Of a DNA stretch of 64,000 bases, positions 11,844 through 50,924 are shown piece by piece (position 1 is the first letter of the stretch; every line of letters starts with the position of its first letter). The position numbers were made by a program, and so were the translations under genes. The stretch lies in contig NZ_JAUSUZ010000001.1 in the NCBI RefSeq assembly GCF_030813715.1, positions 8,600,501-8,664,500 on the forward strand, written 5' to 3'. The notes below the pieces were generated by a model. That model had not been told where the DNA came from and did not search any database. It worked only from the letters and a program-made list of their open reading frames with translations. This DNA is from Catenuloplanes indicus (lineage in GTDB: Bacteria > Actinomycetota > Actinomycetes > Mycobacteriales > Micromonosporaceae).

Positions 11844-12617
11844 TCAGGCGGAGGTGCGGCGCCAGTAGCCGCAGAAGTAGACCCGGCTCTTGGCGATGGC
11901 GAGGTCGGTGCAGAGGTGGCGGCGGACCGTGGTGACCATGGTCGATTCGCCGGCGATGAAGGCGTAGGGATTGCCCGGCGGCAGTTCCAGCGCGCGCAGC
12001 GTGTCGATGATCACGCTGCTGGTGCCCGGCTCGTCGCCGTTGCGGTGCAGCCAGTGGACGGTGACGCCGGGCGGTGCGGCGATCGGGATCTCGCAGGGTG
12101 TGCCGCCGCATTCGATTAGCGCCAGGCCGGTCGCGTCGTGCGGAAGGGACTCGATCGCGGCGGCGATCGCGGGGAGCGCGGTCTCGTCGCCGGCGAACAG
12201 CTGCCAGTCGGTGTCCGCGGGCGGCGCGTACTCCGCGCCGTCGCTGAGCACGCCGATCCGGTCGCCGGGCGCGGCCTTGTGCGCCCAGGCGGAGGCCGGG
12301 CCGCCGTCGCCGTGCAGGACGAAGTCGATGTCGAGTTCGCGGCGGTCGGCGTCGAAGCGGCGGACCGTGTAGTTGCGCACGACCGGGCGTACCTCCTCGG
12401 GCATCGCCTTGAGCGCGGGCCACCACCCGTCCGGCGAGTCCGGCAGCGTGAGCGGCACGTCCGGGGCCGGGGCCAGGAAGATGCGGACCAGGTGGTCGGG
12501 GCCGTCGTAACCGAAGCCGTGCAGGTCCGGCCCGGTGACGGTGATCCTGGTCAGGTGCGGGGTCAGGCGGCGGTTCGCGACCACCTCCGCGGACAGCGCA
12601 CGGCTCGTCACGGTCAT
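11844..12617 (-). CDS. Siderophore-interacting protein (FAD-dependent ferric-siderophore reductase)
   Basis: A 257-residue SIP-family flavoprotein. It has an N-terminal FAD-binding barrel with VVRNYTVRRFD (the RxYTxR motif that contacts FAD), then a SIP C-terminal NAD(P)H-binding half (FAGDETALPAIAAAIE and AGESTMVTTVRRHL), ending VYFCGYWR. Such enzymes reduce Fe(III) in imported siderophores in the cytoplasm, freeing Fe(II). It is divergent from the FecCD permease operon, with an IdeR/DmdR-like box between them, so iron repression of both sides is expected. Length and motifs are complete. Confidence 0.93.
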   Translation of the reverse strand: MTVTSRALSAEVVANRRLTPHLTRITVTGPDLHGFGYDGPDHLVRIFLAPAPDVPLTLPDSPDGWWPALKAMPEEVRPVVRNYTVRRFDADRRELDIDFVLHGDGGPASAWAHKAAPGDRIGVLSDGAEYAPPADTDWQLFAGDETALPAIAAAIESLPHDATGLALIECGGTPCEIPIAAPPGVTVHWLHRNGDEPGTSSVIIDTLRALELPPGNPYAFIAGESTMVTTVRRHLCTDLAIAKSRVYFCGYWRRTSA

Positions 12618-12707: not shown

Positions 12708-13736
12708 GTGACAGCGGTCGGTACGACCCGGGTCCGTCCCGCGGCACTCCTGCTTCCCGGCCTGCTCGGCGCACTCGGGCTGCTCGCGCTGGCCACCGTG
12801 CTCAGCGTGGCGGTCGGCGCGAAGTCGATCCCGCCGCAGGTCCTGATCGACGCGCTGCTGCACTACCGGCCGGACGACCCGGACCATCTGGTGATCCACA
12901 CGCTCCGGTTGCCGCGTACCGCGGCCGGGCTGCTGGTCGGCGCCGCGCTCGGCGTGGCCGGTGCGGTCATGCAGGGCCTGACCCGCAACGCGCTCGCCGA
13001 CCCGGGACTGCTCGGCATCAACGCGGGCGCGGCGCTGCTGCTGGTCATCGGCATCAGCGTGTTCGGGATAACCGGCCTGACCGGGTACGTGTGGTTCGGC
13101 TTCGCCGGCGCCACGCTCACGGCACTGATCGTCTACGGCATCGGCGCGCTCGGCCGGGACCGCGCCACGCCGGTCAAGCTTGCGCTCTCCGGCGCCGCGG
13201 TCAGCGCCGCGCTCGCCTCGGTCACCACCGCGATCGTGCTCACCGACTCGGACGCGTTCGACCGCATGCGCCTCTGGCAGGTCGGCTCGCTGGCCGGCCG
13301 GGACGCCGCACTGATCGGCCAGGCGCTGCCGTTCCTGATCGCCGGCGCGGTCGTCGCGATCCCGTGCGGCCGGCTGCTGAACGCGCTCGCGCTCGGCGAC
13401 GACGTGGCCCGCGCGCTCGGCCAGCGGATCGGCGCCGCCCGCGCGATCGGCGCGCTGTGCGTGGTGGTGCTGTGCGGCACCGCGACCGCACTGGCCGGGC
13501 CGGTCGCGTTCGTCGGCCTGACCGTGCCGCACGTCGCGCGCATGCTGACCGGTCCGGACTACCGGTGGATCCTGCCCTACTCGGCCGTGCTCGCGCCCGC
13601 GCTGCTGCTGGCCGCGGACGTGCTCGGCCGGGTCGTCGCGCGCCCCGGCGAGATCCAGGTCGGCATCGTCACCGCCGTGATCGGCGCGCCGGTCTTCGTC
13701 GCGCTCGTCCGCCGCCGAGACCTGGCGCAGCTATGA
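12708..13736 (+). CDS. FecCD-family iron-siderophore ABC permease (subunit 1)
   Basis: A 342-residue permease with about nine to ten transmembrane helices. FecCD hallmarks are LRLPRTAAGLLVGAALGVAGAVMQ near residue 70 and GPVAFVGLTVPHVAR in the ATPase-coupling region. It begins at GTG 12708 just after the iron box. It pairs with the next gene to form the membrane channel of a ferric-siderophore importer. Its stop overlaps the next ATG (ATGA), showing tight translational coupling. Confidence 0.93.
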   Translation: MTAVGTTRVRPAALLLPGLLGALGLLALATVLSVAVGAKSIPPQVLIDALLHYRPDDPDHLVIHTLRLPRTAAGLLVGAALGVAGAVMQGLTRNALADPGLLGINAGAALLLVIGISVFGITGLTGYVWFGFAGATLTALIVYGIGALGRDRATPVKLALSGAAVSAALASVTTAIVLTDSDAFDRMRLWQVGSLAGRDAALIGQALPFLIAGAVVAIPCGRLLNALALGDDVARALGQRIGAARAIGALCVVVLCGTATALAGPVAFVGLTVPHVARMLTGPDYRWILPYSAVLAPALLLAADVLGRVVARPGEIQVGIVTAVIGAPVFVALVRRRDLAQL

Positions 13737-14779
13737 CCAGCACGCTGCACCGGACCAAGATCCAGATCACGAGGGTACGGCGACGAGGCGCCACCCGTAC
13801 CGTGGCGGTGTCGTTGATCCTGGCGGCGTCAGCCGTGGTGTTGTTCTGTCTCGCGCTGTCGACGGGTGCGTTCCGGATCCCGGTCACCGGCGTGCTCGAC
13901 ACGCTGACCGGTCAGGGCACGCGGCGGGACACGTTCGTCATCATGGACGTGCGCCTGCCGCGCGTGCTGGTGGCGCTGCTCGCCGGTGCCGCGTTCGGGT
14001 TGTCCGGCGCGCTCTTCCAGACCCTGGTGCACAATCCGCTGGCCAGCCCGGACGTCATCGGCGTCACGATGGGCGCCAGCGCCGCCGCGGTCACCTGCAC
14101 GGTGGTCCTCGGCGTGGTCGGCGCCGCGGTCTCGGCCAGTGCCTTTGCCGGGGCACTGGCCACCGCGGCGCTGATCTACCTGCTCGCCTGGCGGCGCGGC
14201 GTCAGCGGCTACCGGCTGGTGCTGGTCGGCATCGGCGTCGGCGCGGTGCTCAGCAGCGCCGTCTCCTATGTGATGTCGCGCGCGGACGTGACCAGCGCCC
14301 AGCAGGCCCTGGTGTGGCTGACCGGCAGCCTGAACGCCCGCTCCTACGAGCACGTCTGGCCGCTGCTGGCCGGCGTCGCGGTGCTGCTGCCGGTCGCGCT
14401 GGCACTGGCCCGTGGACTGCGCGTGCTCGGCTTCGGCGACGAGACCGCGCGCGGGCTCGGCGCGCGCGTGGAGACGCTGCGACTGTCCGTGCTGGTCACC
14501 GGCGTGGCGCTGGCCGCGTTCGCGACCGCGGCGGCTGGGCCGGTGCCGTTCGTGGCGTTCGTGGCCGGGCCGATCGCGCGCCGGCTGGTCGGCGAGCGCA
14601 CGCTCGCGCTGGTCCCGGCCGCGCTGGTCGGGGCGGTGGTCATGGTCGCGTCCGACCTGGTCGCGCAGCGCCTGCTCGGCGACCGCGCGCTGCCGGTCGG
14701 CGTGGTCACCGGCGCGGTCGGCGCGCCGTTCCTGCTCTGGCAGCTGGCCAGCGCGAACCGGGAGGGCCGGGGTGGCTGA
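13733..14779 (+). CDS. FecCD-family iron-siderophore ABC permease (subunit 2)
   Basis: A 348-residue partner permease with the same architecture. It has RLPRVLVALLAGAAFGLSGALFQ and NPLASPDVIGVTMGAS near the N-terminus, GPVPFVAFVAGPIARR in the coupling region, and an ending typical of FecD-like subunits. The ATG at 13733 overlaps the upstream stop by 4 bp, and its own end overlaps the ATPase start. With subunit 1 it forms a heterodimeric importer channel. The N-terminal 20 residues are basic and cytoplasmic. Confidence 0.92.
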   Translation: MTSTLHRTKIQITRVRRRGATRTVAVSLILAASAVVLFCLALSTGAFRIPVTGVLDTLTGQGTRRDTFVIMDVRLPRVLVALLAGAAFGLSGALFQTLVHNPLASPDVIGVTMGASAAAVTCTVVLGVVGAAVSASAFAGALATAALIYLLAWRRGVSGYRLVLVGIGVGAVLSSAVSYVMSRADVTSAQQALVWLTGSLNARSYEHVWPLLAGVAVLLPVALALARGLRVLGFGDETARGLGARVETLRLSVLVTGVALAAFATAAAGPVPFVAFVAGPIARRLVGERTLALVPAALVGAVVMVASDLVAQRLLGDRALPVGVVTGAVGAPFLLWQLASANREGRGG

Positions 14780-15614
14780 AGGCTTGCACGCCCACGAGGT
14801 GACGCTCGGCTACGGGGACCGCGCGGTCGTCCGGACGCTGTCCGTGCGCGTCCCGCCGGGACAGATCACCGTCATCGTCGGCCCGAACGCGTGCGGCAAG
14901 TCCACGCTGCTGCGCGGCCTGGCCCGGCTGCTGCACCCGTCGCACGGCCGGGTCGTGCTGGACGGCCACGACGTCCACCGGATGTCCACCCGCGCGGTCG
15001 CGCTGCGCCTCGGCATCCTGCCGCAGCAGCCGGTCGCGCCGGACGGCATGCGCGTCGCCGACCTGGTCGGCCGCGGACGCTACCCGCACCACCGCTTCTT
15101 CGACCGGTGGAGCGACTCCGACGACGAGGCGGTCGCGGCCGCGCTGCTCGCCACCGGCACGGCCGAGCTGGCCGACCGCGCGGTCGACGAACTCTCCGGC
15201 GGGCAGCGGCAGCGGGTCTGGATCGCGATGGCGCTCGCCCAGCGCACCGGCATCCTGCTGCTGGACGAGCCGACCACGTTCCTCGACGTCACCCACCAGG
15301 TCGAGGTGCTCGACCTGCTCACCGACCTGAACCGCCGGGACGGGGTGACGCTCGTGCTCGTCCTGCACGACCTGAACCTCGCCGCACGGTACGCGCACCA
15401 CCTGATCGTCATGAAGGGCGGCGACCTGGTCGCGGAGGGCGTGCCGGCGGACGTGATCACCGAGAGCACGGTAGCCGACGTCTTCGGCCTGGCCAGCCGC
15501 GTCGTCCCCGACCCGGTCTCCGGCACACCCATGGTCGTGCCGATCGGCCGCTACCACGGCGGCCTGCCCCCGATCGAAACACCGCCCACGCCGCTGCGCG
15601 TGAAGAAAGGTTGA
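14772..15614 (+). CDS. Iron-siderophore ABC transporter ATP-binding protein (FepC/FecE-like)
   Basis: A 280-residue ATPase. Walker A is GPNACGKSTLL (the Ala-Cys variant is usual in FepC-type proteins), the Q-loop is in LGILPQQP, the signature is LSGGQRQRVWIA, Walker B is LLLDEPTTFLD and the switch His is in VLHDLNLAARYA. GTG 14772 overlaps the permease stop by 8 bp. It powers the FecCD pair. The last about 25 residues are a Pro-rich tail. The binding-protein gene follows after 3 bp. Confidence 0.93.
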   Translation: MAEGLHAHEVTLGYGDRAVVRTLSVRVPPGQITVIVGPNACGKSTLLRGLARLLHPSHGRVVLDGHDVHRMSTRAVALRLGILPQQPVAPDGMRVADLVGRGRYPHHRFFDRWSDSDDEAVAAALLATGTAELADRAVDELSGGQRQRVWIAMALAQRTGILLLDEPTTFLDVTHQVEVLDLLTDLNRRDGVTLVLVLHDLNLAARYAHHLIVMKGGDLVAEGVPADVITESTVADVFGLASRVVPDPVSGTPMVVPIGRYHGGLPPIETPPTPLRVKKG

Positions 15615-15617
15615 CCC

Positions 15618-16574
15618 ATGGCCATCAACAGGCGTCTCTTCCTGACCGGCAGTGTGGGCGTCGCCGGCGGCGCGCTGCTCGCGGCGTGCGGTTCCGGTTC
15701 CTCCCCGGAGGAGCCGGCCGCGTCCGCCGCCGAGCGCGAGGTGCAGACGGACAAGGGCCCGGTCACGGTGCCGGCCGCGCCCGCGAAGGTGGTCTGCGCC
15801 GACTACTACGGCGCGTTCGCGGTCGTCGACCTCGGGCTGATCCCGGTCGGTGTGGGCGGCGGCGGGTACGAGGGCACCGGCGCGTTCTACGGCGACAAGC
15901 TCAAGGCCGTGCCGGTCACCGGCGACTACACCGAGCCGGACGTGGAGAAGATCGCCGCGGCCGGCCCGGACCTGATCCTGCGCACCATCGACACGCCGGA
16001 CGCGCTCTACCAGCAGCTGTCCACGATCGCGCCGACCGTGGTCATCTCGTTCCAGCAGCTGTCCCTGCTCGACGTGGCGAACCGGCTCGGCGACGTGCTC
16101 GGCCGCGGCACCGAGGCGAAGGCGCTGCTCACCCAATACGAGCAGAAGACCGCCGCGGTCAAGACCAAGCACGCGGACACGCTGGCCAAGTACACGTTCT
16201 CGTTCGTGCAGGTGGCCACGGAGACCGCGTTCTGGACGCTCGGCCCGGCCTGGACCGACACCACCGTGCTGCTCGCCTGCGGCGTCCAGCTGGCGGAGCC
16301 GTCCAAGTCGCAGACCGAGCAGACCCAGGAGCACTCGTTCGAGCAGATCAACATCCTGGAGCCGAGCGGCGCGCTGCTCATCCCGGCCGGTCCGGACGGC
16401 GTCACGGCCTCCCCGGATAATGCGGCCATGACTGATCTTGACCTGTGGAAGAACCTGTCCGCCGTGAAGGCCGGCCGGGTCTACCCGATCGTCTCCGGCG
16501 CCTCCTCGCTCGGCACCGGCATCCAGCTCGCCGACCGCATGGACACGGTCCTGACCGAGCTCGCGGGCTCCTGA
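15618..16574 (+). CDS. Iron-siderophore ABC transporter substrate-binding lipoprotein
   Basis: A 318-residue lipoprotein. The N-terminus MAINRRLFLTG carries twin Arg, and the lipobox LLAAC places the lipidated Cys at residue 24, so it may leave by Tat or Sec. A Ser/Ala-rich linker leads into a helical-backbone Fhu-type binding fold (VTVPAAPAKVVCADYYGA and AAGPDLILRTI motifs). It captures ferric siderophore outside and hands it to the FecCD pair. The stop overlaps the next ATG, so the following exporter-fold ABC genes belong to the same operon. Confidence 0.92.
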   Translation: MAINRRLFLTGSVGVAGGALLAACGSGSSPEEPAASAAEREVQTDKGPVTVPAAPAKVVCADYYGAFAVVDLGLIPVGVGGGGYEGTGAFYGDKLKAVPVTGDYTEPDVEKIAAAGPDLILRTIDTPDALYQQLSTIAPTVVISFQQLSLLDVANRLGDVLGRGTEAKALLTQYEQKTAAVKTKHADTLAKYTFSFVQVATETAFWTLGPAWTDTTVLLACGVQLAEPSKSQTEQTQEHSFEQINILEPSGALLIPAGPDGVTASPDNAAMTDLDLWKNLSAVKAGRVYPIVSGASSLGTGIQLADRMDTVLTELAGS

Positions 16575-18280
16575 TGGCGGCGGCCGGCGAGTTCACCGCC
16601 AGCGCGGTCCAGCGGCGGATCCTGCGCCGCCAGCGGGCCCGGGTCGGCGTGAGCGTGGTGTTCCTGTGCTCCCATCAGGCCGCCGAGGCGCTCGTACCGG
16701 TGATGATCGGCGTGGTCATCGACCGGGCCATCCGCACCTCCGACACCCGCGCGCTGCTGCTGTCGCTCGCCGGCCTCGCCCTGCTCTTCACGGTCCTCAC
16801 GTTCTCCTACTTCTTCGGTGCCCGCCTCGGGTACGCCGCGGTCGAGCACGAGTCGCACACCACCCGCGTCGAGATCGCGCGGCGCGCGCTCGACCCGCGC
16901 GGCCAGCGGTCCGGACTGCGCGACGGCGAGCTGCTGTCCGTCACCGCGTCCGACGCGGAGATCTCCACGCTGGTGCTGCGCGCGGCCGGGATCGCCGCGG
17001 CCGCCACCACGGCGCTCGTCGTCTCCGCGATCGCGCTGCTGGTCGTGGACGTGCCGCTCGGGCTGGGCGTGCTGCTCGGCGTACCGCTGGTGGTCCTCGC
17101 GCTGCAACGCCTCGCGCCACTGCTCACCCGCCGCAGCGAGGCCCAGCAGGAGGCGCTGGCCGGCACCACCGCGCTCGCCGTCGACCTGGTCTCCGGCCTG
17201 CGCGTGCTGCGCGGCATCGGCGCCCAGGACCACGCGGCCCGCCGGTACGCGGCCGCCAGCGCGCACGCGCTCGGCGTCACGCTGCGCGCCGCCAACAGCA
17301 AGGGCCTGCACCAGGGCCTGACCACCGCGGTCAACGGCCTGTTCCTCGCGGCCGTGGCCGGCACCGCCGGCTGGCTCGCGCTGCGCGGCCGCCTCACGCT
17401 CGGGGAACTGGCCACGGTGGTGCTCCTCGCCCAGTTCATCGCGGAGCCGGTCGGGACGCTCGGCTGGTGCGTGCAGCTGTTCGCGACCGCCAAGGCGTCC
17501 GCGACCCGGGTCGGCCGGGTCCTCGGCGCGCAGCCGCTGGTCACACCCGGTACCGCGGGCCTGCCCGGCCCGTCGGACACCCGGCTGGCGCTGGACGGCG
17601 TCGGCTACGGCAACCTCGGCGACGTCACGCTGCGGGTCCGCGCGGGCGAGGTCGTCGGCGTGGTCGCCTACGACCCGCGGGACGCGGACGCGCTGGTCAC
17701 GCTGCTGTCCGGGCGGGTGCCCCGGGACGGCTACCGCGGCACCGTGCGCATCGACGGCGTACCGGCGGAGACGCTGACGCTGGACGCGGTGCGCGGCACG
17801 CTGCTGGTCGAGCAGCACGACGTGGCGTTGTTCGAGGGCACGCTGCGGACGAACCTGGCCACCCGTACGGCCGGCGACGACCACCTGCTCACCGCGCTGC
17901 GCCACGCCGGTGCCACCGACGTCATCGAGACGCACCCGGACGGGCTCGACCGTGAGCTCACCGAGCGCGGCGCGAACCTCTCCGGCGGTCAGCGGCAGCG
18001 CATCGGCCTGGCCCGCGCGCTCGCCGCCGACCCGCCGGTCCTGATCCTGCACGAACCCACCACGTCCGTCGACGCGGTCACCGAGGGCCTGGTCGCGGAC
18101 GGCCTGACCGCCGCGCGCGGCACCGGCGCGCGCGGCACGCTGGTCATCACCAGCAGTCCCGCGCTGCTGCGCGCCGCCGACCGGGTCGCCGTGCTGGACG
18201 GCGGCCGTGTGGTCGCCGAGGGTACCCACGACGCGCTGGCCGCGGCCGACGCCCGATACCGCGAGGCAGTCATCCGATGA
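16574..18280 (+). CDS. Exporter-fold ABC half-transporter with degenerate Walker A (subunit A)
   Basis: A 568-residue TMD-NBD fusion with six helices (about 1-300) and an NBD (about 335-568). The signature LSGGQRQRIGLARAL (469 on) is intact. The Walker A region reads VVAYDPRDADALVT (363-376), with no GxxGxGK[ST]. Walker B is LILHEPTTS, with His493 in place of Asp. The switch His is replaced by Ser (ITSSPALL). This is the mirror image of its neighbour's lesions, so the two probably form a heterodimer with one working ATP site. It begins in the stop codon of the binding protein. It may act with siderophore uptake (compare IrtAB and YbtPQ) or export; the sequence does not decide direction. Confidence 0.88.
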   Translation: MAAAGEFTASAVQRRILRRQRARVGVSVVFLCSHQAAEALVPVMIGVVIDRAIRTSDTRALLLSLAGLALLFTVLTFSYFFGARLGYAAVEHESHTTRVEIARRALDPRGQRSGLRDGELLSVTASDAEISTLVLRAAGIAAAATTALVVSAIALLVVDVPLGLGVLLGVPLVVLALQRLAPLLTRRSEAQQEALAGTTALAVDLVSGLRVLRGIGAQDHAARRYAAASAHALGVTLRAANSKGLHQGLTTAVNGLFLAAVAGTAGWLALRGRLTLGELATVVLLAQFIAEPVGTLGWCVQLFATAKASATRVGRVLGAQPLVTPGTAGLPGPSDTRLALDGVGYGNLGDVTLRVRAGEVVGVVAYDPRDADALVTLLSGRVPRDGYRGTVRIDGVPAETLTLDAVRGTLLVEQHDVALFEGTLRTNLATRTAGDDHLLTALRHAGATDVIETHPDGLDRELTERGANLSGGQRQRIGLARALAADPPVLILHEPTTSVDAVTEGLVADGLTAARGTGARGTLVITSSPALLRAADRVAVLDGGRVVAEGTHDALAAADARYREAVIR

Positions 18281-20043
18281 GCGAGGGATCGCGTACCACC
18301 CAGCTGCTGCCCACCGCGACCGCCCGGCAGACCTGGACCGCGCTCGCCGCGGAGTTCCGGCGCCTGCCCGGCCTGACCGCCGCCGCCGGTGCGCTGCTCG
18401 TCGCCGCGTCCGCGTCCGGGCTGGTCGCGCCGTGGGTGCTCGGCCGGCTCGTGGACGACGTCAAGGCCGGGGCCGACACCGGCCGGATCGTCATGTGGGC
18501 CGGCGTGATCGCGGCTGCGGCCGTGGTCGCCGGTGTGCTCACCGCGGCCGGCGCGGCCGTCGCCGCGCGGCTCGGCGAGACGGTCCTGGCCCGGCTCCGC
18601 GAACGCGTGCTCGACCGCGCGCTGCACCTGCCGTCCAGCACGCTCGAGCGGGCCGGCACCGGCGACCTGGTCGCGCGCGCCGGTGACGACGTCGCGGTGG
18701 TCACCAACGCGATCACCGGCATCGGGCCGCTGATGGTCGGCGCGGTGCTCACCATCGTGCTCACCGCCGGCGGGCTGTTCACGCTGAACCCGTGGCTCGG
18801 CCTGGCCGGCCTGGTCGCCGCGCCGGCCTATGCGCTGGCGCTGCGCTGGTACCTGCCGAAGTCGGTGCCGTTCTACGCCCAGGAGCGGATCGCCACCGGC
18901 GAACGGTCCCAGGCGATGGCCGGTGCGCTGCACGGCGCCGCCACGGTCCGCGCGTACGGCATCGAGGAAGTGCACGTCGCCCGGATCGCGGACCGGTCCG
19001 CGGCCGCCCGCGACCTCGGGCTGACCGTGTTCGGCATCTTCACCCGCTTCGGGCTGCGGATCAACCGGGCCGAGCTGATCGGGCTGAGCAGCGTGCTGAT
19101 CGCCGGATTCCTGCTGGTCCGCGCGGGGCAGACCACGGTCGGCGCGGCCACCGCGGCCGCGCTGTACTTCCACCGCCTGTTCAACCCGATCGGCCTGATC
19201 CTGATGGAGTTCGACGCGGTCATGCAGGCCGGGGCCAGCCTGGCCCGGCTGATCGGCGTCGCGTCGCTGCCCGGGCAGCCCGCCGTGGCCGGCCGCGAGC
19301 CGGTCGACCACGACGCGGCGCTGAGCGTGACCGTGCGCCGGCACCACTACGAGGACGGGCCCACCGTCCTGGAGGACGTCACGCTGACGCTCGCGCCGGG
19401 GGAGCGGGTCGCGCTGGTCGGGGCCAGCGGCGCCGGGAAGAGCACGCTCGCCGGCATCGCGGCCGGGATCATCCCCGCGTCCGACGGCGACGCGCGCCTC
19501 CGCGGCGTACCCCTGCAAGATCTAGGCGAGATCCGGGTCCGCAAGGAGATCGCGCTGGTCAGCCAGGAGGTGCACGTGTTCGCCGGCCCGCTCGCCGACG
19601 ACCTGCGGCTGGCCCGCCCGGACGCGGACGACGCCGAGGTCGAGAAGGCGCTCGACCGGGTCGGCGCGACCGGCTGGCTGCGCACGCTACCGGACGGCCT
19701 CGCCACGCACGTCGGCGAGGGCGGCCACCGCCTGACCGCGGCCCAGGCCCAGCAGCTCGCGCTGGCCCGGCTGATCCTCGCCGACCCGGCCGTCGCCGTG
19801 CTCGACGAGGCCACCGCGGAAGCCGGCAGCGCGGGCGCCCGCGACCTGGACCGCGCCGCGGCCGCCGCCACCGACGGCCGCACCACGCTGATCGTCGCGC
19901 ACCGACTGGTCCAGGCCGCGGACGCGGACCGGATCATCGTGCTCGACCACGGCCGGATCGTCGAACAGGGCACGCACGACGCACTGCTCGCGGCCGGTGG
20001 ACGGTACGCGCACCTGTGGCAGTCCTGGGGAGGACCACGATGA
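18277..20043 (+). CDS. Exporter-fold ABC half-transporter with intact Walker A/B but degenerate signature (subunit B)
   Basis: A 588-residue TMD-NBD fusion. Walker A GASGAGKST (382-390), Walker B VAVLDEAT (506-513) and switch H542 (VAHRL) are canonical. The ABC signature is LTAAQAQQLALARL (486 on) instead of LSGGQ. The functional composite site would therefore use this subunit's Walker motifs and the LSGGQ of subunit A. The opposite site is dead on both faces. It starts 4 bp inside the previous gene (ATGA), and the methyltransferase starts inside its last codon. Six transmembrane helices occupy about 30-310. Confidence 0.9.
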   Translation: MSEGSRTTQLLPTATARQTWTALAAEFRRLPGLTAAAGALLVAASASGLVAPWVLGRLVDDVKAGADTGRIVMWAGVIAAAAVVAGVLTAAGAAVAARLGETVLARLRERVLDRALHLPSSTLERAGTGDLVARAGDDVAVVTNAITGIGPLMVGAVLTIVLTAGGLFTLNPWLGLAGLVAAPAYALALRWYLPKSVPFYAQERIATGERSQAMAGALHGAATVRAYGIEEVHVARIADRSAAARDLGLTVFGIFTRFGLRINRAELIGLSSVLIAGFLLVRAGQTTVGAATAAALYFHRLFNPIGLILMEFDAVMQAGASLARLIGVASLPGQPAVAGREPVDHDAALSVTVRRHHYEDGPTVLEDVTLTLAPGERVALVGASGAGKSTLAGIAAGIIPASDGDARLRGVPLQDLGEIRVRKEIALVSQEVHVFAGPLADDLRLARPDADDAEVEKALDRVGATGWLRTLPDGLATHVGEGGHRLTAAQAQQLALARLILADPAVAVLDEATAEAGSAGARDLDRAAAAATDGRTTLIVAHRLVQAADADRIIVLDHGRIVEQGTHDALLAAGGRYAHLWQSWGGPR

Positions 20044-20780
20044 GCTCGGAAACCGCGGAACGCCGATACGCGGACTTCTACCGCTACCAGGCATCCAGCC
20101 CGACCCTGCGGCAGATCTACGTCGACGTGTACGGCGACGACTACCCGGACGAGCTGCAGCCGTTCGGCTTCGTCACCCGCACCGACCTGTCCCGCATCGC
20201 CACGCTCGTCGGCCCGCTCGACGGCGGCCTGCTCGTCGACGTCGGCTGCGGCCGCGGCGGCCCCGGCACATCCGTCGCACTCACCTGCGGCGCCCGCCTC
20301 CTCGGCCTGGACGTGGTCCCGGCCGCGGTCGAGGGCGCCCCCGCGCTCGCCGCCTCCCTCGGCCTGCCCACCGCCGAGTTCCGGACGGGCAGCTTCACCG
20401 GGACCGGCGTCCCGTCCGGCGCCGCCGACGCGGTGATGAGCATCGACGCGCTCTGGATGGTGTGGAACAAACCGGCCGCACTCACCGAGATCCACCGCAT
20501 CCTCCGCCCCGGCGGCCGTTTCGTCTTCACCACCTGGGAGCCGTCCTATCTGGACCACGCGAGATTGCTGGCGAAAGCCGGTTTCGAGGTCTCGGTGCGC
20601 GAGGAGACCCCGGACTGGCTCGACCGCCAGGGCGCGGTCTACGCCCGCGTACTCGCCGCCACCGAGACCCTGGAACGCGAGCTGGGCCCCGGCGCCGAGG
20701 TCATCTTCGCCGAGGCCCGCGACACCCCCGCCGTCCTCGGCGGCACCCCACGCCTGCTGATCGCGGCGCACAAACCCTGA
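20040..20780 (+). CDS. SAM-dependent methyltransferase (class I)
   Basis: A 246-residue enzyme with Rossmann motif I LLVDVGCGRGGPGT (about 63-76), an acidic residue ending beta-2 (LLGLDVVP), post-motif I SIDALWMVWNKPAAL, and LRPGGRFVFTTWEP. It is cytoplasmic. The acceptor is unknown; the family includes small-molecule and natural-product methyltransferases. The ATG lies in the stop of ABC subunit B after GGGGAGG, so it is the last gene of the iron operon. A role in modifying a siderophore or the ABC cargo is plausible but unproven. A terminator follows at 20829. Confidence 0.85.
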   Translation: MSSETAERRYADFYRYQASSPTLRQIYVDVYGDDYPDELQPFGFVTRTDLSRIATLVGPLDGGLLVDVGCGRGGPGTSVALTCGARLLGLDVVPAAVEGAPALAASLGLPTAEFRTGSFTGTGVPSGAADAVMSIDALWMVWNKPAALTEIHRILRPGGRFVFTTWEPSYLDHARLLAKAGFEVSVREETPDWLDRQGAVYARVLAATETLERELGPGAEVIFAEARDTPAVLGGTPRLLIAAHKP

Positions 20781-23224: not shown

Positions 23225-23818
23225 GTGATCGGGAGCCGCGTCATGGCCGGGGACAGCGCACCGGTGGACACCGAGCGCGCGCCGGCCCCCGTCGGCGTCC
23301 TGGTCCGGCAGGTGTTCCGGCTCAAGCGTGCGTGGTACCGGCTGCGCTACCCCCGGCTGACCCTGGGCAGGGACGTGCAGATCCGCGGCCGGATCCGGCT
23401 TCGGCGGGGCGTGACGGTCGTCATCGGCGACCGGTGCCGGCTGAACAAACTGGTCCGGTTCGCCGGCCCTGGCGTGGTCCGCATCGGACCGGACACCCTG
23501 CTCAACGGTTCCTGGGTGGGCTGCTGGACGACCGTCACGGTCGGTGCCGGCAGCTTGCTGTCGGACTGCGAACTGGTCGACAACACCTTCCACAACCTCG
23601 ACCCGGCCCGGCGCCACGCGGCGCCCTCGCCCAGCACCCGGGCGCCGATCACCGTCGGCGAGAACGTGTGGATCGGTGCCGGCGCCCTGGTCATGAAGGG
23701 CGTCACGATCGGCCGGGACTCGGTGGTCGGCGCGGCCACGGTGGTCCGCACCGACGTGCCGGCCCGGGTGGTCGTGATCGGAAATCCGCAGCAGATCGCC
23801 AAGAGGTTCGATGACTGA
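23225..23818 (+). CDS. Hexapeptide-repeat (LbH) acyltransferase
   Basis: A 197-residue sugar or EPS O-acyltransferase of the left-handed beta-helix family. Hexad repeats run through VRIGPDTLLNGSWVG, ITVGENVWIGAGALVMKGVTIGRDSVVGAATVV and end at VVVIGNPQQIAKRF. The candidate catalytic His is in DNTFHNLD. The start GTG 23225 sits in a short repeated stretch; ATG 23243 is an alternative. It overlaps the following Wzz-like gene by 8 bp. It probably acetylates a sugar precursor or the repeat unit, using an acyl-CoA donor. Confidence 0.87.
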   Translation: MIGSRVMAGDSAPVDTERAPAPVGVLVRQVFRLKRAWYRLRYPRLTLGRDVQIRGRIRLRRGVTVVIGDRCRLNKLVRFAGPGVVRIGPDTLLNGSWVGCWTTVTVGAGSLLSDCELVDNTFHNLDPARRHAAPSPSTRAPITVGENVWIGAGALVMKGVTIGRDSVVGAATVVRTDVPARVVVIGNPQQIAKRFDD

Positions 23819-25295
23819 CACCACCGATGTCGCGCCCCGCAGCCGCACCGTCAGCCCTCTCGACCTGCTCCGCCCGCCCGTCCGGCGGTGGCGCACGACC
23901 CTCGCCGGGGTGCTGCTCGGCCTGCTCGGTGCGGTCGGCTACCTCGCCACCGCGGGCGGCTTCGAGGCCACCGCCGTGGTCGCGGTCCGGCCGGTCGTCA
24001 CCGACCCGTTCACCTATCCGGGCCCGGGCTCCGACCGGGTGGTCAACATGACGGTGGAGAACGGCCTCGCCACCGGCACCGAGGTGGTCACGGCGGTCGC
24101 GGCGGCCACCGGGCAGGGCGAGGAGGCGGCCCGCGCGTCGCTGACCGTCGAGCTGCCGGACGGATCGCAGGTGCTCCGGTTCCGCTACGCCGCGCCGACC
24201 GCGGACGCGGCCGTCGCCGGGGCCAACGCCGCAGCCAACACTTACCTGGACGTGCGTCGCCGCCTCTACCAGACCCAGCGGGACGCGAGGATCGCCTCGT
24301 ACGACCAGAGCATCGCCGCACTCGCCGCCGAACGCGACAAGGTCCGCGCCGCGCTGCCGTCCGGCGCCGGCTCGGTCGCCGCCACCGCCGCACTGGACCG
24401 GCTGCGGAGCCTCAATGACCAGCTCGGCGAGCTGGCCACCCGGCGTGCCGACGCCGCCGCGGTCGACGTCACGCCCGGTACGGTCACCCGGATCGCCACC
24501 CCACCCGCCGCCCCCGGACGGATGCCGCTGCCGATAGTGCTGATCGCGGCGCTGGCCGGCGGTCTGCTCGCCGGCGCGGTGCTCGCCACCGCGGTGGAGG
24601 CGCTGAGCCGCCGAGTCCGGACCGGGTACGACGCGGCCACGATCTCCGGGCTACCGCTGCTCGCCGAGCTGCGCGGCCGGCGGTTCGGCCAGGGTCGCAG
24701 CCAGCTCACGGCGGATCTGCGGTACCTGGTGCCGGCGATCCTCGGCCGGCTGGGCCCGGCCACCCGCCGCATCGTGCTGCTCGCCCCGGGCTCCGGTGAA
24801 CTGCCCACCGGCGTCGCCGCCGGCCTGGCCGTGGCGCTCGCCGACGGCGGCAACGAGGTGCACTGGCAGGACCTGACGCCCGAGGCGCCGCTGAGCCGGT
24901 CACGGGTGCTGGCCTCCGCCACCGGCCCGATCACCGAGCGGCCGCGGCCCACCGACACGACCGAGCCGCTGACCCGGCCGCGCCCGTCGCCGGTGCTGGT
25001 CGAGCAGCGCGAACGGGACCGGACCAGCGCGTCCGTCACCCGGTCCGTACCGATCGGCCGGGGCCGGGTGTGGTTGATCGCGCCCGCCGACCCGGACGAA
25101 AAACTGATCACACTGGTCAGAGCCGTCCCGGCCGACTGGGACGCGCTCGGCGTGCGGTCCGTGCAGCAGGCCGCCGTGGTCCTGGTGGCACGCCGGGATC
25201 ACACCCGCGCCGCCGACCTGGACCGGCTCGCCACCACCCTTCGCCTCAGCGGGGTCCGGACCCTCGGCATCGTTCTGGTGAGCGGGCATGACTGA
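23811..25295 (+). CDS. Wzz/chain-length-type EPS protein with vestigial BY-kinase domain
   Basis: A 494-residue protein with TM1 (about 33-50), a periplasmic-type Wzz domain with coiled-coil segments (about 50-235), TM2 (about 238-260), then a cytoplasmic domain. That domain aligns with bacterial tyrosine kinases, but the P-loop GEGKST is replaced by GELPTG (329-334). The Walker A' Asp motif (LLVDADLR) reads VHWQDLTP, and no Tyr cluster is present at the C-terminus. It probably controls polymer length as a structural co-polymerase without kinase activity. It overlaps the acyltransferase and the Wzy gene, consistent with one transcript. Confidence 0.83.
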   Translation: MTDTTDVAPRSRTVSPLDLLRPPVRRWRTTLAGVLLGLLGAVGYLATAGGFEATAVVAVRPVVTDPFTYPGPGSDRVVNMTVENGLATGTEVVTAVAAATGQGEEAARASLTVELPDGSQVLRFRYAAPTADAAVAGANAAANTYLDVRRRLYQTQRDARIASYDQSIAALAAERDKVRAALPSGAGSVAATAALDRLRSLNDQLGELATRRADAAAVDVTPGTVTRIATPPAAPGRMPLPIVLIAALAGGLLAGAVLATAVEALSRRVRTGYDAATISGLPLLAELRGRRFGQGRSQLTADLRYLVPAILGRLGPATRRIVLLAPGSGELPTGVAAGLAVALADGGNEVHWQDLTPEAPLSRSRVLASATGPITERPRPTDTTEPLTRPRPSPVLVEQRERDRTSASVTRSVPIGRGRVWLIAPADPDEKLITLVRAVPADWDALGVRSVQQAAVVLVARRDHTRAADLDRLATTLRLSGVRTLGIVLVSGHD

Positions 25296-47449: not shown

Positions 47450-48082
47450 ATGAGCACCACCCAGGCGGGACCGGTGCGGCGCAGTCGCCGTGCCGGGTAC
47501 ACGGCCGCGACCCACCGCTCCATCCTCGAGGCCGCCCGCCGCCTGTTCCGCGAGCGGGGCTACTTCGCGGTGAAGGTGGAGGAGGTGGCGCGCGCCGCCC
47601 GCGTCTCGCCCGCGACCGTCTACGCCGTGGCCGGTGGCAAGGGTGGTCTGCTGCGCTCGCTGATGCGGTTCTGCGCGGCCGCGCCCGCGGTCACCGCGAA
47701 CCTGGACCTGATCGACCGCGCCGACGACCCGGGCCGGATCCTGGACCTGGTCGCGGACACCACGCTCGACATGCGCCGTGAGTGGGGCGACGTGCTGCGC
47801 GTCATCATGGCGACCGCGCCGCACGAGCCGGACGCGGCCGCGGCGCTGGCCGAGGCGACCGACCGGTACCGCTCCGGCCTCCTGCTGGCCGCGAAGCGCC
47901 TGTCCCGGCTCGGCGCGCTGCGCACCGGCGTCGACGTGCCGCACGCGGACGCGCTGCTGTGGTTCTACTTCGGCTACTCCTCGTTGTTCACGCTCGTCGA
48001 CGACCTGCACTGGAGCGACGGCGACGCGGTGGCGTGGCTGCGCACCGCGGCCGCGGACGCGCTGCTGGAGCCGGGTGCCTGA
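47450..48082 (+). CDS. TetR-family transcriptional regulator
   Basis: 210 residues. The HTH is in TAATHRSILEAARRLFRERGYFAVKVEEVARAARVSPATVYAVAGGKGGLLRSLM (about 18-70); the C-terminal ligand-binding domain is helical. It is followed after 1 bp by a large SARP regulator, so TetR and the SARP pair are probably one transcript. That makes TetR a likely ligand-responsive switch for the SARP genes. The YAVAGGKGGLL stretch replaces the more common YxHFxxKxxL motif. Confidence 0.9.
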   Translation: MSTTQAGPVRRSRRAGYTAATHRSILEAARRLFRERGYFAVKVEEVARAARVSPATVYAVAGGKGGLLRSLMRFCAAAPAVTANLDLIDRADDPGRILDLVADTTLDMRREWGDVLRVIMATAPHEPDAAAALAEATDRYRSGLLLAAKRLSRLGALRTGVDVPHADALLWFYFGYSSLFTLVDDLHWSDGDAVAWLRTAAADALLEPGA

Positions 48083-48083
48083 G

Positions 48084-50924
48084 ATGTGGTTGCAGGTGCT
48101 CGGCCCGGTGCGGGGCCGCCGGGACGACGTGGAGCTGGAACTCGGCCCGCCGCAGCAGCGCACACTGCTCGCGGTGCTGCTGGCCGCGGCCGGTGAGCCG
48201 GTCGGCATGGCCACGATCCTCGACGTGCTCTGGGGTGACGCGCCGCCCGCCGCCGCGGCCGCCACGGTCCAGCAGTACGTCAGCCGGCTCCGCCGGATCA
48301 TCGAACCGGACCGGCCGGCCCGCGACACCGGCGGGCTGCTCCGGCGTACCGCCGGTGGCTACCAGCTGGCCGCGGACGACGACCAGGTCGACCTGCTGCG
48401 CTGGCGGGCGCTGATCCGCGACGCCCGCGCGCTCTACGGCGCGGACAAGGCCGCGGCCGGTGCGATGTTCCGGGAGGCGTTCGCGCTCTGGACCGGCCCG
48501 GCCGCGGCGAACCTGCCGCCGGAGGCGCGCGGCCACCCGGTCTTCGCCGGCCTGGACCGCGAGCACGTCACCACGCTGGTCGAGGCCGCCGACGACGCGC
48601 TGTCCTGCGGGTTCGGCGCCGCGCTGGTCCCGGCGCTGGACCGGGCCGCGGTCTGGCACCCGTTCGACGAGGGCGTGCACGCCCGGCTGCTGCGCGCGCT
48701 GGCCGCGGCCGGCCGCCGCGCCGACGGGCTGCGCCGCTACCGCGAGGTCCGCGACCGGCTCGTCGGCGAGCTGGGCATCGAGCCCGGGCCGCTGCTCCAG
48801 GCCGCCCACCGTGAGCTGCTGGCCGAGGCCGCCCCGGCGCCCGAGGACCGGCCCCGGGACGAACCCCGGGCGGTACGGCCGGCGCAGCTGCCCGCGGACC
48901 TCGGCTCGTTCTCCGGCCGCGACGTCGAACTGGACCGCCTCGACTCGCTCGCCGAGGGCGCGATGCCGCTGGTCGTGGTCGGTGGGCTGGGCGGTGTCGG
49001 CAAGACCGCGCTCGCGCTGCGCTGGGCACACCGGGTGATGTCCGACTACCCGGACGGCCAGCTATACGTGGACCTGCGCGGCTTCGCGCCGCGCAACCCG
49101 CCGCTGTCCCCGGTCGAGGCGCTGCACGGCTTCCTGGAGGCGCTCGGCGTGCCCCGGTCCAACCAGCCGGCCACGCTGGACGGTCTGTCCGCGCTGTACC
49201 GCAGCGTGCTGGCCGGCCGGAAGGTCCTGGTGGTGCTGGACAACGCGCGCGACGACGAGCAGGTCCGCCCGCTGCTGCCCGGTACGGCCGGGTGCGCGGT
49301 CGTGGTGACCAGCCGCAGCTATCTCGGCGGGCTCGCGGTAGACGAGGGCGCCCGGTCGGTCGGGCTGGACGTGTTCAGCGACGCGGACGCGTACCGCTAT
49401 CTGCGGTCCCGGCTCGGCAAGGAACGGGTGGACGCGGAACCGGAGGCGGCCGCCGAGATCATCGAGGTGTGCGGCGGGCTGCCGCTGGCCCTGGCGATCT
49501 GTGCGGCGTGGACCGAGCGCAGCCCGGCGTTCACGCTCGGCACGGTCGCGGCGGAGATCCGGCGGCGGGCCGGGCTGGACGCGTTCGCCGGCGTCGCCAC
49601 CGGCCGGGACGTGCGCGCGGTCTTCTCCTGGTCGTACCGGCGGCTCTCGCCCGGTGCCGCGGAGCTGTTCCGGCGGCTCGGCCTGCACCCCGGCGGCGAC
49701 GTCGCGCTCGGCACCGTGGCCAGCATCGCCGGCCGCGGCACGCCGGAGACGCTCACGCTGCTGGCCGAGCTGGCCGACGCGCACCTGATCTCCGAGCTGC
49801 GGCCCGGCCGGTACGGCGCGCACGACCTGGTCCGGGCGTACGCGGCCGAGCTGGGCGAGCCGGCCGAGCGGCAGGAGACGCTGCGCCGCACGCTCGACCA
49901 CTACCTGCACTCGCTGCTGGCCGGTGCGCAACTGGTCAACCCGCTGCGCACGCCGATCGACACCGGCGGGATCGCGGACCGGGTGCGGCCGTTCACGCCG
50001 CGCGACACCGACGAGGCGCTGGCCTGGTTCGGCGAGGAGCGGGAGAACATCTCGGCCGCGATGGACGCGGCCGAGCAGCACGGGCTCGACCCGTACCTGT
50101 GGTATTTCGCCTGGGGGCTGAACGGCTACCTGATGGACCAGCTCGGCCGGTGGGACGAGGTGATCCCGGCGGCCCGCCGCGCGCTGGCCGCGGCCGAGCG
50201 GCAGAACTCGCTGTGGTGGCGCGGCTACCTGCACAACGCGCTCGGCATCTGCCACCACCGGTTCGGTGACTACGCGGAGGCGTACCGGCAGTGGTCGCTC
50301 GCGGTGGAGGTGGGCCGGGCGGCGGACGACCCGGTCCGCACCGGCATCGGCCTGGCCGGCATGGCCAGCACGCTCACCGACAACGGCCGCTGGCCGACCG
50401 GCGACGAGATCGAGCGGGCCGCCGCGTTCGCGGACGAGGCGGTCGCGCTCTGCGGGCACCTGGACCGGGACGCGCCGCCCGGCCGGCCTGACCCGTACAC
50501 GGTGCGTGCCCGGGAACTGCTCGGCATCTGCGCGGAGTTCTTCGCGCTGCGCATCCTGCACCGCACCGGCGACGTCGAGGCGGCCGCGGCCGAGCTGCGC
50601 CGCGGCATCGACATGCATCGCGGCGTCGGCAACTGGGCGCGCGAGGGCTGGGGCTGGGAGCTGCTCGGCCGCATCTACCAGCACGTCGGCCAGGACGCAG
50701 AGGCGATCGAGGCGTACGAGCGCGGCCTGGCGCTGATGCAGCGCTGGCAGTGGAGCGGCACCGAGGTGCTGGTCTCGCTCGCGGCCTGCCACGCCCGGCT
50801 CGGCGACAGGGCGGCCGCGGCCCGGCTGCGCGCCCGCGCCCGGCGGCTCGCCGACGGCGTCTACCACGCCTACGCCGACCAGCTGCGCGCCCGGCTGGAC
50901 GCCTACGAGACGGCCGAGGGCTGA
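48084..50924 (+). CDS. AfsR/SARP-family regulator with NB-ARC and TPR domains (copy 1)
   Basis: 946 residues. An OmpR-type winged HTH (about 1-95) is followed by the bacterial transcriptional activation domain (about 100-250). The NB-ARC ATPase has P-loop GGLGGVGKT (about 299-307), kinase-2 VLVVLDNARD, an RNBS-like VVVTSRS and GGLPLALAI. The C-terminal TPR solenoid spans about 600-940. AfsR-type proteins activate secondary-metabolite genes through direct repeats near the -35 region, gated by ATP binding. It is immediately followed by a close paralogue, so the two form a tandem duplication. No biosynthetic genes lie within the window. Confidence 0.94.
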   Translation: MWLQVLGPVRGRRDDVELELGPPQQRTLLAVLLAAAGEPVGMATILDVLWGDAPPAAAAATVQQYVSRLRRIIEPDRPARDTGGLLRRTAGGYQLAADDDQVDLLRWRALIRDARALYGADKAAAGAMFREAFALWTGPAAANLPPEARGHPVFAGLDREHVTTLVEAADDALSCGFGAALVPALDRAAVWHPFDEGVHARLLRALAAAGRRADGLRRYREVRDRLVGELGIEPGPLLQAAHRELLAEAAPAPEDRPRDEPRAVRPAQLPADLGSFSGRDVELDRLDSLAEGAMPLVVVGGLGGVGKTALALRWAHRVMSDYPDGQLYVDLRGFAPRNPPLSPVEALHGFLEALGVPRSNQPATLDGLSALYRSVLAGRKVLVVLDNARDDEQVRPLLPGTAGCAVVVTSRSYLGGLAVDEGARSVGLDVFSDADAYRYLRSRLGKERVDAEPEAAAEIIEVCGGLPLALAICAAWTERSPAFTLGTVAAEIRRRAGLDAFAGVATGRDVRAVFSWSYRRLSPGAAELFRRLGLHPGGDVALGTVASIAGRGTPETLTLLAELADAHLISELRPGRYGAHDLVRAYAAELGEPAERQETLRRTLDHYLHSLLAGAQLVNPLRTPIDTGGIADRVRPFTPRDTDEALAWFGEERENISAAMDAAEQHGLDPYLWYFAWGLNGYLMDQLGRWDEVIPAARRALAAAERQNSLWWRGYLHNALGICHHRFGDYAEAYRQWSLAVEVGRAADDPVRTGIGLAGMASTLTDNGRWPTGDEIERAAAFADEAVALCGHLDRDAPPGRPDPYTVRARELLGICAEFFALRILHRTGDVEAAAAELRRGIDMHRGVGNWAREGWGWELLGRIYQHVGQDAEAIEAYERGLALMQRWQWSGTEVLVSLAACHARLGDRAAAARLRARARRLADGVYHAYADQLRARLDAYETAEG

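Follow-up and report, generated by a model that had tools for sequence, protein, structure and literature searches.

Heterodimeric ABC transporters in which one ATP site is degenerate are already a well-studied kind (PMC7756269, PMC12038006, PMC10246721, PMC8421411). A composite site takes its Walker A, Walker B, Q-loop and switch residues from one subunit and its signature from the other (PMC7756269). MsRv1273c/72c, TM287/288, TmrAB and BmrCD are TMD-NBD heterodimers with one consensus and one degenerate site, and in the first two the degenerate site differs in few residues and takes nucleotide (PMC12038006). In human transporters, every degenerate site has an altered signature, and the Walker B Glu is the next most frequent position to differ (PMC7756269). 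The PDR subfamily has been called the most extreme asymmetric case; at the dead site of Pdr5, all conserved regions differ except the D-loop, and ATP has been seen bound there (PMC8421411).

Two siderophore systems are also relevant here. The mycobacterial siderophore transporter IrtAB is an exporter-fold heterodimer linked to siderophores and to a SIP/FAD reductase, with the SIP domain lying within the transporter, and it can bind nucleotide in both subunits (PMC10246721). CchGI is presumed to export coelichelin (PMC12161575), and its siderophore locus encodes one complete uptake system besides the exporter-type ABC genes; motif loss is not mentioned in the passages on CchG/CchI (PMC12161575, PMC3765725). 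Among the titles and abstract beginnings of the open-licence papers that our searches listed, we found no report of an ABC exporter family without Walker A.

The pair described here lies in a 64,000-nucleotide stretch of DNA (the window) from the 9.25-Mb genome of Catenuloplanes indicus. Its genes, A and B, are consecutive and overlap by ATGA at 18277-18280. PF00664 and PF00005 match both products above the cut-off, and the order of TMD then NBD in both subunits, together with one complete composite site, corresponds to the exporter-fold (ABCB-like) type. The closest named relative of A comes from Catenuloplanes japonicus (86%). The features of the pair are as follows.

16574..18280, plus strand: subunit A, an ABC half-transporter of 568 aa (TMD-NBD) that lacks a P-loop (PF00664 at 25-289, PF00005 at 351-497)
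17657..17695, plus strand: Walker A position of A, GVVAYDPRDADAL (aa 362-374), P-loop residues gone
17816..17818, plus strand: His415 of A, in the Q-loop Gln column of the profile alignment
17978..17992, plus strand: signature of A, LSGGQ, intact (LSGGQRQR, aa 469-476)
18050..18055, plus strand: Walker B of A (LILHEP), with His493 in place of Asp and the catalytic Glu494 present
18071..18073, plus strand: D-loop Asp500 of A, retained
18149..18160, plus strand: switch region of A, T-S-S-P, with Ser527 at the switch position and without His
18277..20043, plus strand: subunit B, an ABC half-transporter of 588 aa (TMD-NBD) whose Walker A, Walker B and switch residues are all present
19420..19446, plus strand: Walker A of B, GASGAGKST (aa 382-390), intact
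19732..19746, plus strand: signature of B, LTAAQ (aa 486-490), degenerate
19804..19809, plus strand: Walker B of B, Asp510-Glu511 (VAVLDE, aa 506-511), intact
19816..19830, plus strand: D-loop of B, AEAGS (aa 514-518) instead of SxLD
19900..19902, plus strand: switch His542 of B, intact

The sequence-only reading had described A as carrying LSGGQ without a Walker A, a Walker B Asp or a switch His, and B as carrying intact Walker A, Walker B and switch His with LTAAQ for a signature; motifs and coordinates were re-read and are correct for both subunits, which confirms that observation. GVVAYDPRDADAL matches none of the five P-loop positions (G, G, G, K, S/T), so the P-loop of A is indeed essentially gone. 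Two lesions had been missed, namely AEAG for SxLD in the D-loop of B and His415 in the Q-loop column of A. The D-loop of the signature-bearing subunit sits near the composite ATP site. What is left of the dead site in window A is Glu494 and possibly an A-loop Tyr, Tyr345, near the A-loop position. As each ATP site is built from both subunits (PMC7756269), complementary lesions are to be expected, and all the changes in A and B fall on one site.

Unlike IrtAB, the pair combines a Walker A with a signature at only one of its two ATP sites, and it has one dead site where IrtAB can bind nucleotide in both subunits (PMC10246721). It likewise departs from MsRv1273c/72c and TM287/288, in which few residues differ, by the loss of a P-loop and of the partner D-loop (PMC12038006). 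With Pdr5 it shares one site at which Walker A, Walker B, the switch His and the signature of the partner are all altered, but the Walker A change in Pdr5 is Lys to Cys (PMC8421411, PMC7756269), whereas in A the whole P-loop is lost; Pdr5 is moreover a full-length fungal protein with the NBD before the TMD, the reverse of the order in A. Judged by its motifs, the A/B family exceeds Pdr5 in two respects, the loss of the whole P-loop and of the partner D-loop, and the earlier view that the pair is more extreme than typical asymmetric ABC transporters is supported by these comparisons (PMC7756269, PMC8421411).

Relatives were chosen for their similarity to A, with no regard to motifs. A-like proteins are present in 106 of 393 genomes of the class (E <= 1e-60) and in 219 of 250 genomes of the family (E <= 1e-50), and 40 family and 60 class stretches were chosen by hand to span identity and genera. 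The 184 loci (L035-L218) yielded 148 neighbouring pairs of A type and B type, 141 of them with both NBDs complete, the seven others being dropped because B is cut by the locus end. The pairing rule returned no pair in 34 of the 80 loci of one set, including L063 with A in two ORFs, and in two of the 60 class stretches, L191 and L199, the latter having the B NBD in a short ORF that reads LTIVE and ATASAG. The candidate status of L191 as an orphan A without B was rejected, its partner lying about 11 kb upstream in two pieces. One locus (L188) has the same pair in the order B then A and was counted as P-loop-less. The counts leave out L001-L034, where B is cut, and five additional NBD pairs not matching A; the pairs split by about 11 kb and the loci L219, L220 and L275, all described below, are not among the 141.

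The P-loop Lys is missing from A in 128 of the 141 complete pairs, and A matches none of the five P-loop positions in 106 of these and one in the other 22. All 128 keep the signature and D-loop Asp of A together with the Walker A Lys, Q-loop Gln, Walker B DE and switch His of B. On the other site, the switch His of A is gone in 128 of 128 and its Walker B Asp in 118, Glu stands at the catalytic position of A in 38, and the B signature is broken in 127, the exception being VSPGQ (L140), which still fits S.G[QE]. In the remaining 13 pairs, A matches four or five of the five P-loop positions and the B signature reads S.G[QE] in 13 of 13, and the catalytic position of A is not Glu in 12. The claim of one intact composite site and a second one destroyed on both of its faces thus stands for the window pair and for the 128 P-loop-less homologous pairs, with the B signature of L140 as the sole exception. 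No pair inside the family lacks the complementary lesions, the 13 P-loop-bearing pairs being a separate outgroup.

In a quick tree for which 142 A rows were thinned to 114, the 101 P-loop-less rows fall on one side (branch value 100) in two sister clades, with long branches on three outgroup rows, and a tree from the TMDs only gives the same split (branch value 99). On the latter tree, the Lys of A and the signature of B each change once, the A His and the B D-loop twice each, the Walker B Asp of A six times and its catalytic Glu fourteen times. The single changes of the A Lys and the B signature indicate that both faces were lost together once and then maintained, and they rule out repeated covariation of the lesions. 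Because the family is one descent, the 128 agreeing pairs are not independent. The survey for covariation proposed in the sequence-only reading therefore bears out the co-occurrence of the lesions, but as one event on one branch. The D-loop Asp of B is lost in clade I (107 pairs, including the window pair) and kept in 20 of the 21 pairs of clade II.

Comparison with four relatives from the genus shows purifying selection on A, with dN/dS of 0.21-0.38 in the TMD and 0.28-0.41 in the NBD; this and the invariant live-site motifs rule out a pseudogene. A search of the same genome using B located 11 stretches that encode other exporter-type NBDs; two of them (L219 and L220) hold a like pair, and the other nine have a P-loop in every NBD read. 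Since these nine keep the P-loop, the lesions of A are not an artefact of composition or alignment, and chance or misalignment is ruled out because the orthologues read share the lesions and the other exporter loci of the genome align normally. The two further pairs of a P-loop-less A and a broken-signature B (G000:C1 4188000-4195500 for L219 and 1609000-1616500 for L220) are of the clade II type with the B D-loop Asp kept, and FecCD, SIP and binding-protein genes are absent from the stretch examined. In Paractinoplanes rishiriensis, A is spread over two ORFs (L063:9857-11418) with a family-normal B NBD, which reflects either a broken gene or a sequencing error.

The AlphaFold model of A retains the fold (mean pLDDT 87); the model of B is weak (pTM 0.54). 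Behind the strand that precedes the P-loop, A is modelled with a two-residue turn and a helix from residue 368, and B with a five-residue loop and a helix from residue 388, so that helix 1 begins about three residues earlier in A than in B and lies over the phosphate loop. MsRv1273c/72c, TM287/288, TmrAB and BmrCD are among the closest folds in Foldseek. The distance matrices of A and B correlate at r = 0.965 over the 128 pairs (maximum 0.141 in 200 permutations), which, together with the gene overlap and the linkage, suggests that A and B form a heterodimer.

The dead site is not drifting, and its new residues are near-invariant in both subunits. In the 108 clade I rows, B has A514 in 107, E or D at 515 in 108, A516 and G517 in 108 each and S518 in 107, and in its signature T487 in 96 and Q490 in 98. 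A has H415 in 107, P495 in 108, S528 in 107, P529 in 101 and L532 in 108. The old nucleotide contacts of A vary, with the A-loop Tyr in 36 of the 108 rows and, at the P-loop, D367 in 82, P368 in 79 and A371 in 86. The D-loop Asp500 of A, which would serve the live site, is present in 108 of 108. We take ABCB2 of the TAP transporter to correspond to A. In TAP, a D-loop mutation is tolerated in ABCB3 and abolishes ATPase activity in ABCB2 (PMC7756269), and by analogy the kept D-loop of A and the lost D-loop of B would fit these data. Among the 107 clade I pairs, A carries His in the Q-loop Gln column in 106, in the Walker B Asp column in 82 and in both columns in 81, the double His being found in none of the 21 sister-clade and none of the 13 outgroup pairs.

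The gene neighbourhood links the window pair to iron. Its operon runs FecC, FecD, FepC, binding protein, A, B and methyltransferase, and a SIP gene is divergent from it.

11844..12617, minus strand: siderophore-interacting protein (FAD_binding_9 and SIP), divergent from the operon
12708..13736, plus strand: FecCD permease 1
13835..14746, plus strand: FecCD permease 2 (coordinates are those of the Pfam match)
14781..15614, plus strand: FepC-like importer ATPase (start as used; ORF open from 14412)
15618..16574, plus strand: siderophore-type binding protein (Peripla_BP_2), its stop overlapping the start of A at 16572-16574
20040..20780, plus strand: SAM-dependent methyltransferase, its start overlapping the stop of B at 20040-20043

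Elsewhere in the window, two consecutive large regulators (1048 and 911 aa, at 47778-50924 and 50931-53666) have BTAD, NB-ARC and TPR matches, and a 494-aa ORF at 23811-25295 without a Pfam match adjoins an O-antigen-ligase-like (Wzy_C) gene. The whole genome has 13 FecCD matches.

Counting FecCD, SIP or binding-protein genes within 3 kb, we find them at 43 of 107 clade I loci (FecCD at 30, SIP at 17, a binding protein at 2), at none of 23 clade II loci (the 21 pairs plus L219 and L220) and at none of 22 control loci with intact P-loops, the flank being shorter than 3 kb at some loci, controls included. The difference between clade I and the controls (Fisher p 9e-5) serves as a guide only, given the relatedness of the loci and the limited flank at some of them. 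The listed iron genes are absent within 3 kb at the other 64 clade I loci, and an iron link across the whole family is not supported, as most clade I and all 23 clade II loci are without them at that distance. The five genes scanned beside a Micromonospora pair (L037) include no iron genes. A scan of 86 neighbours on the same strand gave only 7 FecCD genes, though this was the commonest family, along with 4 genes for this type of binding protein and 2 for SIP.

Some relatives are part of hydroxamate-siderophore clusters, and several resemble the coelichelin locus. Five genomes of one genus, which we take to be Streptomyces (L230-L234 with L252-L256), carry B and A about 11 kb apart on the same strand, and all five A and five B NBDs read have the family lesions. 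As at the coelichelin locus, B and A flank a large gene; in L230, the one genome scanned, it is an ORF of at least 2999 aa with condensation, AMP-binding and carrier domains and hence an NRPS. In one split-pair genome (G525), B is in two pieces. In the two of these genomes read beyond B (L272 and L273), B is preceded by a pair of FecCD-type permeases together with a FepC-type ATPase and a formyl transferase, to which L273 adds an ornithine oxygenase and a binding protein, again as in the coelichelin locus. Four plasmid records were matched, and in the one examined, from Streptomyces sp. NBC_01558 (L275), A and B carry the same lesions and are flanked by genes for a SidA-family monooxygenase and a binding protein, with an NRPS and iron permeases annotated nearby. 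Like CchG/CchI of Streptomyces coelicolor (SCO0491/SCO0493), the pair is linked to a FecCD uptake system, a likeness at the level of locus make-up. Unlike at the CchG/CchI locus, no NRPS was seen among the 20 window genes scanned.

We favour the reading, at a probability of about two in three, that A/B is an exporter-fold heterodimer working on a single ATP site, with the dead site as a nucleotide-free dock and a siderophore as cargo, most likely exported. A and B would form one ABC heterodimer driven by a site composed of the Walker A, Q-loop, Walker B and switch His of B and the signature and D-loop of A, where ATP binding and hydrolysis would close and open that side. The opposite site, from the Walker positions of A and the signature and D-loop of B, would hold no ATP; through its newly conserved residues it would act as a protein dock on which the other side would pivot. 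In clade I, the siderophore would most likely be sent out in its iron-free form, the FecCD/FepC/binding-protein system of the same operon would import the iron complex, and the siderophore-interacting reductase would free the iron. The likeness of the loci to the coelichelin locus with its presumed exporter CchGI favours export by analogy, the SIP-only loci leaving room for import.

The exporter fold might instead work inward, as in IrtAB, taking up a ferric siderophore from which the SIP reductase strips the iron. SIP genes within 3 kb at 17 of the 107 clade I loci, the SIP gene adjoining the operon in the window, and Foldseek matches of A to chains of YbtPQ (rank 8) and IrtAB (rank 10) speak for such an importer; in L053, L059 and L061, SIP lies within 40 bases after B and FecCD is absent within 3 kb, an arrangement equally compatible with an IrtAB-type importer and with an exporter. 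However, chains of TmrAB (chain B) and BmrCD rank first and second for A, and the window SIP is a separate gene, fused to neither A nor B, where IrtAB has the domain within the transporter (PMC10246721). The window operon and the L273 cluster, moreover, already have a FecCD importer with ATPase and binding protein, so that a second importer would be redundant and an exporter would be missing. On balance, we regard inward transport as possible but rather unlikely.

The other alternatives concern the dead site and A itself. A weakly bound ATP could serve there as ATP glue without a classical P-loop, given that nucleotide occupies, in certain states at least, the degenerate sites of MsRv1273c/72c, TM287/288 and Pdr5 (PMC12038006, PMC7756269, PMC8421411) and that window A retains Glu494 and the nearby Tyr345. 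This seems improbable, since the three glycines, Lys, Ser/Thr, Walker B Asp and switch His of A are all lost, the signature and D-loop Asp of the partner are lost as well, and the A model puts a helix over the phosphate loop; from these motifs and models, the weak site probably no longer binds ATP. More doubtful still is that the site was rebuilt, not lost, in clade I and that its paired His could hold a metal, perhaps iron, gating the pump by iron status; the Q-loop Gln is a magnesium ligand in a working site (PMC10246721). Lastly, A could be a decaying or regulatory relic, with B acting as a homodimer or with a different partner, and the more variable NBD of A (mean entropy 1.59 versus 1.21 bits in B) and its two ORFs in L063 might be read that way. 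We give this very little credence, because A is under purifying selection with its signature and D-loop Asp invariant across 108 rows, a B homodimer would have no complete site, its own signature and D-loop being broken, and five genomes retain both genes though they lie about 11 kb apart.

The A/B family, whose features are shared by relatives in other actinobacteria, looks like a set of natural one-ATP pumps in which to ask what the second site does. Its dead site seems unable to hold ATP and the D-loop of the partner is lost as well, which makes the family a natural experiment. Should such a pump prove to work on one ATP, ATP glue would not be needed in general. The iron link would make the family testable in Streptomyces through siderophore release.
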